DNA of 64,000 nt, from assembly GCF_001753165.1 (NCBI RefSeq), contig NZ_CP017448.1, positions 2,374,462-2,438,461 on the forward strand. The letters are read 5' to 3'. The stretch comes from Acidihalobacter aeolianus. GTDB lineage: Bacteria; Pseudomonadota; Gammaproteobacteria; DSM-5130; Acidihalobacteraceae. The notes beneath the pieces are model-generated. The model was given only the letters and a program-made list of their open reading frames with translations, was not told where the DNA came from and made no database searches. The position numbers and the translations under genes are program-made. How positions within the stretch are numbered: position 1 is the stretch's first letter; each line of letters starts with the position of its first letter. Positions 8,996 through 16,058 of the stretch are shown here, piece after piece.

Positions 8996-9580
8996 CTAAT
9001 CCAGATCGGCGGCCAGCGAGCTGACGGTATCCGCCGGTAGGCTGTCGATCGAACGCTCGAAACCCGGATAGTCGATACCCATGCCGAGCATCCCTCCAGC
9101 CTTGGCCGCCACGACCATTTCCGGTGTCAGTTCGAAACGCAGGAAATGCACGGTTGAGGTCTTTTCCTCGGTCTCGCGGTCAAGGTCCTCGTCGGCAATG
9201 GCATACACACGATCCATGTCGCCCACCCGAACCCAGACATGATCCTCCACGCCGATGAGCCTAGCTAGGGCCGCCTGACGTTCGTCGGCGTCCGTATACT
9301 CGATCATGAAGGTCGCCTTCCAGTTGCTGCCGTCGGGAATCAGCGGGTTGTAGGCCTCGAGTTCCTCCTCGATGCCCGCGGCCTCGAAGATGCGTTCGGC
9401 ACGGAGAATCTCCTGAATCTGGTACTGCATGGTCAGGCGATCCTCGAAATACAAGGCGGCGTGCTCGCCGAGTGCTACGCGGCGCGGACGCTTGTGCGCC
9501 ATGACGCGCGCACGAAACTCGGGGCGCACCTCGGCGTAACGTTCCAGAGAATACAGGTCGGACCGGGTCAGCTTTTGCAT
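8996..9580 (-). CDS. DUF3501 family protein
   Basis: 194 residues, soluble, acidic, no signal peptide. It matches the conserved DUF3501 pattern: N-terminal YSLERYAEVRPEFRARVMAHK, then LGEHAALYFEDRLTMQYQIQEILRAERI, and a C-terminal RFELTPEMV. No Cys-rich metal motif or nucleotide fold is visible. It is the last gene of a cluster with a Cys-rich Fe-S oxidoreductase and a rubrerythrin, a grouping repeatedly seen in proteobacteria (family knowledge). The association suggests a role in peroxide or redox metabolism, but biochemical function is unknown. A strong GC-rich hairpin lies in the 108-nt gap before it. Confidence 0.88.
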   Translation of the reverse strand: MQKLTRSDLYSLERYAEVRPEFRARVMAHKRPRRVALGEHAALYFEDRLTMQYQIQEILRAERIFEAAGIEEELEAYNPLIPDGSNWKATFMIEYTDADERQAALARLIGVEDHVWVRVGDMDRVYAIADEDLDRETEEKTSTVHFLRFELTPEMVVAAKAGGMLGMGIDYPGFERSIDSLPADTVSSLAADLD

Positions 9581-9630
9581 GGCTTACGCTCCCACGAATC
9601 GGGCCGGGTTCGGGTAAAATCCGGCTGATA

Positions 9631-9650
9631 CCGCGGCGCGAACGCCGCGG
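9631..9650 (-). terminator. Stable hairpin between the Fe-S oxidoreductase and DUF3501 genes
   Basis: A perfect 8-bp inverted repeat, CCGCGGCG and CGCCGCGG, closes a four-base loop that reads UUCG in the minus-strand RNA. A short T-run (ATTTTA) follows about 12 nt later, too far for a classical terminator. It may attenuate, or protect and process, the transcript between the two genes. Confidence 0.4.
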
Positions 9651-9688
9651 CGGTGACTTTAAGAGAAACCCCTGAAACGGGCGGTGGG

Positions 9689-11035
9689 CTACAGACCGTA
9701 GGCCATTCGCAACAGGGTCAATGGATGCTCGGGCGGCTTGTCGCCTTCAATGCCGTTTTCAATCTGATGACCGGCCATCGGGCAATCGCTCGAATAGTGA
9801 TCGGCCTCGGCCTTCTGCACCCGGCTGATCACTGGCTGGCAGATCTTCATCGAGATCTCGTGATACTCGCTTTTCACGGCGTAGGTACCATCGTGACCAG
9901 AACAGCGTTCGATCGGGTCGATCTTGGTTTCCGGAATCAATTCGAGCAATTCACGCGTCTTCATGCCGATGTTCTGCACCCGCAGGTGACAGGCAACGTG
10001 ATAGGCGATCTTGCCCAGCGAGCTCTTGAAATCGGTTTTCAGCAAACCGTCGCGATGGCGCAGCATCAGGTATTCGAAGGGATCGAAAATATGTTCGCGC
10101 ACCTTGGCGACCTCCGGGTCGTCCGGGAACATCAGCGGCAGCTCCTGCTTGTACATGAGGACGCAAGAGGGCACCGGGGCAACGATGTCCCAACCCTCGT
10201 CGATCATGCGGGCGAGCACCGGGATGTTGGCCTCCTTGGCCTCGCGAACGGCCTCCAGATCCCCAAGCTCGAGCTTGGGCATGCCGCAACACTGTTCCTT
10301 CTCAGCCAGTGTGAGCACGATGCCGTTGTGGTCGAAGACCTTGTACAGATCCTCGGCGAGATGTGGTTCGTTATAGTTGCCGTAACAGGTCGCATAGAGC
10401 GCGACCTTGCCGCGCGTGCGTCCTGCAGCCACCGGCTCTGTGGCCGAGGCGGCAAAGTGTTCGACTCTCTTGCGGCCCGTATTGCTGTGATACTCGGGCA
10501 ATGCCGCATCTGGGTGGATACCCATCGACTTGTCCAGCATCTTGCGGAACGCAGGGTTGCGGTTGGCGCTGTTGACCATGTCCGCAACCACTGGGATGCC
10601 TGCCAGCTTGCCCACCGCATCGGTCGAACTGATCATCTTGTCGCGAGGCTTGGCATTGCCTTCGCGGTATTTCACCGCCTTGGCGCGAAGCATCAGGTGG
10701 GGAAAGTCCAGGTTCCACTCGTGCGGCGGCACGTAGGGACACTTGGTCATGTAGCACAGGTCGCACAGATAGCAGTGATCCACGACCTGCCAGAAATCGG
10801 CCTTGTCCACACCGTCAACTTCCATCGATTCTGATTCGTCGACGAGGTCGAAAAGCGTGGGGAAGGAGTGACATAGGCTGACGCAGCGCCGGCACCCGTG
10901 GCAGATGTCGAAGACCCGCTCCATCTCGGCGAACAGGGATTCCTGGTCGTAAAACGACGGCGACTGCCATTCCACGGGATGGCGGATCGGCGCCTCCAGA
11001 CTGCCTTCCTTACGCCCTTCGGCCGGTGTAGACAT
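9689..11035 (-). CDS. Cys-rich Fe-S oxidoreductase (GlpC/HdrD-like)
   Basis: 448 residues. The N-terminal third has two ferredoxin-like [4Fe-4S] motifs, [11 protein letters not shown] and [12 protein letters not shown]. The C-terminal half has two CCG-type domains ([11 protein letters not shown] and a second with [10 protein letters not shown] and CSGHDGTY), as in heterodisulfide reductase subunit D and GlpC. No membrane segment is visible. In this context it is best read as an electron-transfer partner of rubrerythrin and DUF3501; electron donor and acceptor are unknown. The ATG has an excellent GAGGAG site 9 nt upstream. It lies about 100 nt downstream of rubrerythrin, behind a leaky-looking terminator. 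Confidence 0.88.
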
Positions 11036-11104
11036 CTATCGGGTCTCCTCGTGTTTATTTTTCGGTTGCTGTGCGCATCGCAGGCGTACGGTCGCGACAA
11101 AATC

Positions 11105-11128
11105 GGGGCCGCCCAGACAGGCGACCCC
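11105..11128 (-). terminator. Terminator or attenuator after rubrerythrin
   Basis: On the minus strand a 9-bp stem (GGGGTCGCC with GGCGGCCCC, one G-U pair) and a 6-nt loop are followed by GATTTTG. It sits just after the rubrerythrin stop and before the Fe-S oxidoreductase gene, so it could set a higher rubrerythrin-to-reductase transcript ratio. Confidence 0.55.
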
Positions 11129-11136
11129 GTCAGGCA

Positions 11137-11553
11137 TTACGCCATGTCGTCCAGAGCCTTCTGGAAGCGGTTGGCGTGCGAACGCTCGGCCTTGGCGAGG
11201 GTCTCGAACCAGTCGGCAATCTCGTCGAAACCTTCTTCACGCGCGGTCTTGCCCATGCCCGGGTACATGTCGGTGTACTCGTGGGTCTCGCCCGCGATCG
11301 CAGTCTTCAGGTTCAATTCGCTAGTGCCGAAAGGCAGGCCCGTGGCTGGATCGCCGCACTGCTCCAGGTATTCCAGATGGCCGTGGGCATGGCCGGTCTC
11401 ACCTTCCGCGGTGGAGCGGAAAACGGCTGCCACGTCATTCTGGCCTTCGACATCGGCCTTGGCTGCGAAATAAAGGTAACGGCGATTGGCCTGCGATTCG
11501 CCCGCGAAGGCGTCCTTGAGGCTCTGTTCGGTCTTGCTGCCTTTGAGTTCCAT
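11137..11553 (-). CDS. Rubrerythrin-family diiron protein (no rubredoxin domain)
   Basis: 138 residues, only the ferritin-like erythrin domain; the C-terminal rubredoxin Cys4 domain of classical rubrerythrin is absent. Candidate diiron ligands are Glu19, Glu52/His55, Glu89/Glu92 and Glu123/His126, arranged as paired ExxH-type motifs. The family reduces hydrogen peroxide, and without rubredoxin it needs a separate electron donor, for which the neighbouring Fe-S oxidoreductase is a natural candidate (inference). The frame opens 13 codons earlier, but MELKGSK has a GGAGG site about 10 nt upstream and fits the family start. Expression is probably controlled through the palindrome in its promoter. 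Confidence 0.9.
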
Positions 11554-11628: not shown

Positions 11629-11657
11629 AATTTAGACTAAGTCTAAAACACAGTCAA
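11629..11657 (-). promoter_or_regulatory. Rubrerythrin promoter with overlapping palindromic operator
   Basis: Minus strand: -35 TTGACT, 17-nt spacer, -10 TAAATT. A 17-nt perfect palindrome, TTTAGACTAAGTCTAAA (11631-11647), covers the end of the -10 box and most of the spacer, the classic place for a repressor. Transcription would start near 11622, leaving a leader of about 70 nt. I cannot assign the regulator; Rrf2/IscR-, Fur/PerR- or DtxR-type proteins are possible for an iron/peroxide gene. Confidence 0.75.
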
Positions 11658-11682
11658 CCCCGCCTCCGGATTATGGACCGCA

Positions 11683-11711
11683 TTGCCCTCGCTGGCACAC
11701 TGGGGTAGTTT
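11683..11711 (+). promoter_or_regulatory. Candidate promoter for xseB-ispA-dxs
   Basis: TTGCCC and TAGTTT with a 17-nt spacer precede xseB by about 38 nt. Both boxes are imperfect. Position in the divergent gap with rubrerythrin is the main support. Confidence 0.3.
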
Positions 11712-14859: not shown

Positions 14860-15243
14860 ATGCCCGCCAAATACACGCTGACCGTGCTCACCGACTTCGC
14901 CGCCGCGCATACCCTGCGCGGTTATCCTGGCGACTGCAGCCGTATGCACGGACACAACTGGAAGCTCGAGGCCGAGGTCCAGGCCACGGCCCTGGACGAT
15001 GTCGGCATGGCGGTGGACTTCAAGGTGATCAAGCAGGCCGCGCGCGAAATCGCCGGCGAGCTGGATCACCACTACCTCAACGACCTGCCGGCCTTCGCAC
15101 GCGTCAACCCCACAGCCGAGCAGATCGCGGCCTACATCTACCAGCGTCTTGGCGAACGTCTCAATACCGGGCAGGTACGCGTTAGCGCAGTGACCCTGTG
15201 GGAAACCGAACGCGCCTGCGTCCGCTACAGCGAGGAAGCATGA
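14860..15243 (+). CDS. queD: 6-carboxytetrahydropterin synthase family protein (QueD/PTPS)
   Basis: 127 residues. Zinc ligands are visible as His17, His30 and His32 (the last two in RMHGHNW), and Cys26 occupies the catalytic position of the QueD/PTPS family. It would convert dihydroneopterin triphosphate, made by the next gene's product, toward 7-deazapurines or pterins. The first ATG after the dxs stop fits the family start; upstream open frame lies inside dxs. It overlaps folE2 by ATGA. No other queuosine gene lies nearby, so the exact pathway branch is uncertain. Confidence 0.88.
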
Positions 15244-16058
15244 ATCACATGAGCCCGCCCAAGGCACGCGACAATCGCGAGATGCCGGACGTCCAGTCCG
15301 CCGCGGACGATCGTCGCATCCGCATCGATCAGGTCGGCATCAAAGGACTGCGCCACCCCGTGCGCATTGCGCTGGACGACGGTGAAGCGCCACAGGCGAC
15401 AGTGGCTACGGTAGACATGCTGGTGGACCTTCCTGCCGACCGCAAGGGCACCCACATGTCGCGTTTCGTCGCCCTGCTCAACGAGTCCGAGGACGCACTG
15501 GACATTGCTTCCTTCGAACGTCTGCTCAAGGCCATGAGCGAGCGTCTGGATGCGCGGAGTGGGCGTATCGAGCTGAGCTTCCCCTACTTCGTACGCAAGT
15601 CCGCTCCGGTATCCGGGGTCCCCAGCCTGCTAGACTATGACGTCGCCATCATCGGCGACATAGACCATGAGCGGGTCGCGCTCACCCTGCGCATCGTCGT
15701 GCCCGTCACCAGTCTGTGCCCCTGCTCTCGCGATATTTCGGCTTACGGCGCGCACAACCAGCGCTCGCACATCACCTTGACGGTTAGGCTGGCAGGTCCC
15801 GTCTCGGTACGCAGGCTGATTCAGATCGCCGAAGAAGAGGCCTCCTGCGAATTGTTCGGTCTGCTCAAGCGGCCGGACGAAAAGTTCGTCACCGAACGCG
15901 CCTACGACAATCCCAAGTTCGTCGAGGATGCCGTACGCGACGTCGCCGCCCGCCTGGATGCCGAGCCCGGTATCGCGGCCTATATCGCGGAATGCGAGAA
16001 CTTCGAGTCCATCCACAATCATTCGGCCTACGCACGCATCGAGCGCGACAAGTCCTGA
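15240..16058 (+). CDS. folE2: GTP cyclohydrolase FolE2 (type IB)
   Basis: 272 residues. Converts GTP to 7,8-dihydroneopterin triphosphate and uses a flexible metal site in place of the zinc of FolE. The signature [10 protein letters not shown] contains the catalytic Cys, and [15 protein letters not shown] near the C-terminus is typical. The ATG overlapping the queD stop (ATGA) is preferred; a second ATG nine bases later is possible. Coupling with queD points to pterin or deazapurine supply. A strong terminator follows. Confidence 0.94.

Follow-up and report, generated by a model that had tools for sequence, protein, structure and literature searches.

An Irr-like repressor that other peroxide-destroying enzymes share appears to control a rubredoxin-free rubrerythrin operon in a gammaproteobacterium

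How a rubrerythrin without a rubredoxin domain obtains its electrons, and what decides when it is made, are the questions raised by three neighbouring genes in the window, the whole 64,000-nucleotide stretch of Acidihalobacter aeolianus contig NZ_CP017448.1 that was analysed. All three lie on the minus strand: rbr (11137-11553) encodes a single-domain aerobic-type rubrerythrin of 138 aa (RBR), the next gene (9689-11035) a GlpC/LutA-like Fe-S protein of 448 aa (RFO), and the last (8996-9580) a DUF3501 protein of 194 aa (PF12007, 241 bits against a cut-off of 25) with a solved homologue, 3fjv. The initial annotation had placed the genes at the same positions, and its names agree with Pfam and NCBIfam. 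It had also described the rubrerythrin as lacking a rubredoxin domain, which is borne out: the Pfam and NCBIfam profiles detected no rubredoxin domain in RBR, which matches PF02915 (E 1.8e-28), and the whole protein contains one cysteine. The classical-rubrerythrin model, NCBIfam RuberyRbr, gives it 126.7 bits, below the cut-off of 200. A sequence search of the PDB returned 9onm and 4di0 (both E ~2e-76) and sulerythrin (1j30 and others, E 4e-51), a solved protein of the same single-domain kind that differs from RBR in being archaeal and in having a heterobimetallic Fe-Zn centre (PMC12833474, accessible passages). The operon is a rubredoxin-free set of RBR, a GlpC-like RFO and DUF3501, and it has the features of the aerobic-type system, namely a single-domain RBR without rubredoxin linked to DUF3501 and to a COG0247-like Fe-S gene.

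Such a set is already known. According to the accessible passages of their paper, Cardenas, Quatrini and Holmes named RFO and the 'aerobic-type' RBR-DUF3501-RFO set in 2016 and counted co-occurrence in 4461 genomes, finding all three genes in 185 and RBR-DUF3501 only in 25; they also proposed that RFO makes up for the missing rubredoxin domain (PMC5114695). Eukaryotic homologues of the trio with predicted mitochondrial targeting followed in 2020 (PMC7050145, accessible passages). Because the cluster was described and counted in the first of these papers and extended in the second, it is not itself new, and the opinion of the initial annotation that the pathway is not well described has to be given up, as both the cluster and the idea of RFO in place of rubredoxin were in print in 2016. 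The present operon shares with the published system the three linked families, the absence of rubredoxin and the proposal for RFO. What it adds is its control: the accessible passages of PMC5114695 mention neither operator nor regulator, and the link to Irr is made here. In Sideroxydans the trio genes are clustered with OxyR (PMC7852563, accessible passages). No report of an Irr link of the RBR-RFO-DUF3501 operon, or of Irr-type control in this group, was among the matches listed in our literature search, outside which most subscription literature lay. The proposed Irr-type control of this cluster thus appears to be new, whereas the cluster is not. Nor did we find, in the literature searched, an experiment on whether RFO is the donor or on what DUF3501 does.

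The three genes are tightly associated, as co-occurrence counts showed. Among 274 genomes of the class (sampled genomes are numbered G, loci L), DUF3501 was present in 119, aerobic-type RBR (at least 76% identity) in 118 and RFO (E 1e-20) in 121; 124 genomes held any of the three, 150 none and 114 the complete trio, and RFO accompanied aerobic-type RBR in 115 of 118 genomes. The impression that the genes always travel together therefore holds for 114 of 124 genomes but not for the other 10. Contig ends can explain three of these (G191 and G260, no RBR; G208, no DUF3501), and in G164 the trio is in broken pieces. RBR adjoins DUF3501 in G064 and G079, with RFO neither between them nor elsewhere, the DUF3501 gene of G079 being cut by a contig end. 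G032 has RBR alone, G116 RFO alone and G212 an RFO-like protein alone (48% identity); the 31% RFO match in G252 probably represents a different GlpC-like protein. Two half operons are found in G088, one of RBR with DUF3501 and one of RBR with RFO (L040, L041), as if RBR paired with each helper separately. Beyond the class, DUF3501 was found in 17 of 299 genomes of a phylum sample, and the 15 loci fetched from these, 11 of them from other classes, all contain the trio in the order RBR-RFO-DUF3501. In 80 named loci, the best 80 of 574, all three genes were present in 70; eight of the remainder run off a contig end, L175 has no RFO and L115 no RBR nearby.

What RFO might do is suggested by its domains. 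The initial annotation had called it HdrD-like with two CCG domains. The Fe-S family name agrees, but the protein is GlpC-like rather than HdrD proper: its best NCBIfam model is GlpC (234.1 bits against a cut-off of 278, and 169.3 against 279.9 for a further GlpC model), both scores lying below the equivalog cut-offs. Pfam finds a single CCG domain, at residues 211-294 (PF02754, E 9e-13). LutA consists of two CCG lobes. In a fold search the C-terminal part of RFO matched LutA over almost its whole length (246 columns, target of 238 residues, TMt 0.83), so a second CCG lobe is likely; its motif is degenerate, with one cysteine at the expected CC, while C349, C378 and C418 are invariant in an alignment of 18 RFOs. 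The same part also resembles HdrB in the fold search. All 18 aligned RFOs keep the eight cysteines of the N-terminal clusters. RFO thus resembles GlpC in its N-terminal 4Fe-4S pair, and GlpC, LutA and HdrB in its CCG-type C-terminal part; it differs from GlpC in its score below the GlpC cut-off and in having no recognised linked flavoprotein dehydrogenase. By sequence, RFO had no match in the PDB at E 0.01. RFO-like genes also occur in two genomes without aerobic-type RBR or DUF3501 (L042 in G116, L043 in G212); the L043 protein keeps the invariant cysteines and has CIGAGGG where most others have CSGHDG.

The fold of DUF3501 is less informative. Its own homologue 3fjv was the sole clear match (Z 26.1, rmsd 2.4, 191 residues aligned), and all later chains had Z of 6.6 or less, a level rated common, so we drew no function from the fold. 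Model confidence is lowest in the conserved stretch at residues 131-140 (block mean 58).

The electron chain proposed in the initial annotation is plausible. RBR would reduce H2O2 or organic peroxides at its diiron site, by analogy with its relative ferriperoxin of Hydrogenobacter thermophilus; RFO, which has no flavin domain, would most likely relay electrons to RBR from a donor encoded elsewhere; and DUF3501, a soluble protein, probably binds RBR or RFO. The flanking ORFs of 76 loci (part of the window, L037-L096 and L263-L277), clustered over a few kb on each side, gave 20 clusters present in at least four loci: the trio, ispA, dxs, parE, a radA-like gene and similar housekeeping genes, spurious antisense ORFs, an Irr-like gene and one secreted-looking protein. 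No flavoprotein, FNR, ferredoxin or quinone enzyme was recognised by eye in these 20 clusters, so the electrons for RFO would come from a general pool. A protein of ~195 aa with a signal-like start recurs near the trio (L063:6296-6883 and its cluster loci, 11 in all), and an ORF of the window near dxs and ispA (15198-16058) resembles, by eye, a GTP cyclohydrolase of the FolE2 type.

The most serious alternative, which we regard as possible though the less probable account, is that a general NADPH-FNR system or ferredoxin feeds RBR directly, RFO and DUF3501 being accessory proteins for metal loading, repair or diiron-site assembly and not the donor. Ferriperoxin resembles RBR in being single-domain and without rubredoxin, and is grouped with sulerythrin in the accessible passages of PMC5114695; it differs in that function with NADPH and FNR has been demonstrated, peroxidase activity being seen in vitro with Fpx, FNR and NADPH and not if any of them was omitted (PMC3317640, accessible passages). 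The initial annotation had held that reduction of the rubrerythrin by an unrelated ferredoxin, with no effect of the HdrD-like protein, would speak against its chain, and the ferriperoxin result goes part of the way towards this. RBR-DUF3501 pairs without RFO do occur (G064, G079, L175), RFO was not found in Thermoproteales, and in H. thermophilus the RFO gene is separate from the other two (both PMC5114695, accessible passages). Against a role for a general reductase alone stand the presence of RFO in nearly all aerobic-RBR genomes with its cluster cysteines invariant, and the flanking clusters of at least four loci, among which inspection by eye revealed no FNR, ferredoxin or flavoprotein.

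The regulation of the operon offers a separate line of evidence. A perfect 7-1-7 palindrome, TTAGACTAAGTCTAA, lies at 11632-11646, 79-93 bases before the RBR start and outside the interval covered by the initial annotation; the 3.5 Mb genome contains it exactly only this once, along with two weaker sites of two mismatches each (L003, L097). A related palindrome, TTAGA(C/A)TnA(G/T)TCTAA, precedes RBR in 89 of 118 genomes, as seen when 120 upstream regions, each of at most 250 bases, were scanned for at least 12 of 14 matching positions, with A or C accepted at position 6; mononucleotide-shuffled regions gave ~0.5 matches per set. TTAGA and TCTAA are almost invariant among the 89 sites, and a stricter score gave 40 of 56. 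The share was lower in the named loci, the best 80 of 574 (40 of the 71 regions before RBR, of which two, L132 and L151, at a contig edge, are faulty), and 6 of 15 phylum-sample loci had a site with at least 12 of 14 positions. Only the RBR upstream regions of L199 and L229 were used. RBR starts were taken from alignments, with 48 of 64 added regions beginning at ATG, and some operator distances are therefore off by a few codons. One genome, G247, was counted as motif-bearing through an orphan RBR and not through the RBR of its operon; the orphan (L090, G247:C6) carries the palindrome and the RBR of the complete operon (L089) does not.

In the window the palindrome overlaps a weak promoter-like pair on the minus strand, TTGACT and TAAATT with a spacing of 17 (11629-11657, 9 of 12 matches); an equally scoring pair further upstream (11670-11698) was preferred in the promoter comparison. 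A promoter-like pair surrounds the site in 71 of 89 cases, against 7.4 in shuffles, and none was found around the operator in the same-genus locus L037. In 45 cases the first base of the -10 hexamer lies 14-20 bases ahead of the palindrome (-20 to -14), and in 15 it coincides with the second base of the palindrome (+1), a geometry that suits a repressor. The ICE consensus is TTTAGAAnnnTTCTAAA, and Irr boxes were reportedly treated by Rodionov et al. in 2006; this consensus has an exact match in 16 of 277 loci.

The candidate repressor is an Irr-like protein encoded away from the operon. The genome has three Fur-family genes: one product scores above the Fur cut-off, one is nearest to Zur, below its cut-off, and one is Irr-like (L005:1438-1872). 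For the last, the Irr and IrrA models are the best, with 132.2 against a cut-off of 150 and 127.7 against 170, both below threshold, and the protein contains HHH in FFDTNLDPHHHLYH, an instance of the HXH motif that is a feature of Irr (PMC7762939, accessible passages). By a detection threshold of E 1e-10 only, 111 of 274 class genomes contain an Irr-like protein; 87 have both Irr and DUF3501, 32 DUF3501 only, 24 Irr only and 131 neither (p 1e-22). The operator is present in 80 of 85 RBR genomes with Irr and in 9 of 33 without (Fisher 4e-13), which leaves five RBR genomes with Irr and no motif, and nine with the motif in which no Irr was detected, one of them G151, a member of the family to which the genome of the window belongs. 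With one genome per family the corresponding counts are 55 with both motif and Irr, 3 with the motif only, 5 with Irr only and 17 with neither (p 2e-10), kinship between families remaining in this comparison. Genome-wide, the exact pattern has 66 sites in 54 of 274 genomes, 51 of which have Irr; the reversed control pattern occurs in 16 of 274 genomes, one with Irr, so the base composition of Irr-containing genomes does not explain the sites. An Irr-like gene lies within ~0.5 kb of the trio in seven class genomes (G006, G093, G142, G202, G214, G250 and G255) and near it in 10 named loci, five being from those same genomes and two, L176 and L072, apparently from one contig. In 4 of the 11 DUF3501 genomes from other classes, an Irr gene scoring above the Irr cut-offs immediately precedes RBR in the same orientation; two of these four loci have a palindrome of at least 12 of 14 positions before RBR, and L272 and L275 do not. 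The conserved operator appears to belong to an Irr-like repressor, judged from sequence patterns.

Palindromes of the 7-1-7 form are general in the Fur superfamily, and it might be supposed that another member, Fur or a PerR-like protein, binds here and that the correlation with Irr reflects shared ancestry. The three Fur-family genes of the genome and the nine motif-bearing genomes without an Irr match agree with this, but we consider it improbable: the correlation persists at one genome per family, 51 of the 54 genomes with the exact pattern contain Irr, the remaining Fur-family proteins of the genome are one Fur that passes its cut-off and one nearest to Zur, and Irr adjoins the trio in at least two classes.

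The sites elsewhere point to the function. By coordinates, 46 of the 66 exact sites are upstream of RBR, and the other 20 are all in genomes with Irr. Nineteen proteins near these 20 sites were scanned; where a site had a gene on either side, distance and orientation decided between them. Nine sites precede genes of peroxide enzymes, namely di-haem cytochrome c peroxidase (four), PF00141 peroxidase, KatG-like by eye (two), and AhpC/TSA peroxiredoxin (three); four are followed by cofactor-independent phosphoglycerate mutase (L243, L254, L257, L261), and the remaining seven were assigned to FtsH, Crp-like, dihydroorotate dehydrogenase, ArsP_2, NIT, FG-GAP or none. The 19 proteins included neither a ferritin nor an iron transporter. 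Because cytochrome c peroxidase, KatG-like and peroxiredoxin genes elsewhere have the operator in common with it, the case for a peroxidase role of the operon is strengthened. In Alphaproteobacteria, according to the accessible passages of PMC3413700, Irr controls MbfA, a rubrerythrin-like protein, and likewise the rubrerythrin-like gene blr7895 in B. japonicum, and R. sphaeroides Irr binds the promoters of mbfA and of ccpA, for a cytochrome c peroxidase, a close parallel to the boxed cytochrome c peroxidase genes here. The two systems are alike in having a Fur-family Irr and a promoter box, with a rubrerythrin-like membrane ferritin and cytochrome c peroxidase as the alphaproteobacterial targets (PMC3413700); here, in contrast, the Irr-like protein scores below the curated cut-off, the host is a gammaproteobacterium and the target is a soluble RBR operon. 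That the module serves mainly iron handling, as a ferroxidase or in iron detoxification under an iron regulator with peroxide as oxidant and not as toxic substrate, would fit Irr-type control as iron regulation and the 1.57-fold rise of a Pelagibacter rubrerythrin, a hypothetical ferroxidase, under iron limitation (PMC2864753, accessible passages), but it is unlikely in view of the peroxide-reducing enzymes behind 9 of 20 non-RBR sites, the four phosphoglycerate mutases, the lack of a ferritin or iron transporter in the 19 proteins, and the inability of an fpx disruptant to grow aerobically (PMC3317640, accessible passages).

We therefore think it probable that a non-alphaproteobacterial Irr-like repressor commands a small peroxide regulon, with the trio operon as its main exact-site target and cytochrome c peroxidase, KatG, peroxiredoxin and phosphoglycerate mutase as targets in some lineages, and that the trio is an iron-priced peroxidase released when haem or iron is ample or when peroxide destroys Irr. 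In the organism studied here, the unlinked Irr-like protein most likely represses through the palindrome near the promoter, binding, sensing and sign all being predicted from sequence, and the iron-rich module would be made when iron or haem suffices or when peroxide disables the repressor. A further level of control may lie within the operon, in which a terminator-like hairpin in the gap between rbr and rfo (11104-11129, minus strand) is a possible attenuator. Similar hairpins are found in 12 of 50 RBR-RFO gaps, against 0.6 in dinucleotide shuffles, and in 1 of 48 rfo-DUF3501 gaps (1 of 20 of the longer ones); this suggests that in some species RBR may be made in excess of its helpers.

Taken as a whole, the reading that we favour with moderate confidence is that of an aerobic-type diiron peroxidase with two dedicated helpers under Irr-like repression. 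The trio is present in 114 of 274 sampled genomes of the class and has homologues in eukaryotes that are predicted to be targeted to mitochondria, which gives its function a wider importance. The operator is independent evidence that links the trio to peroxide enzymes, and it offers a handle on the signal that releases it and on whether RFO or FNR feeds it; if the proposal is true, Irr-type control would extend beyond the Alphaproteobacteria.
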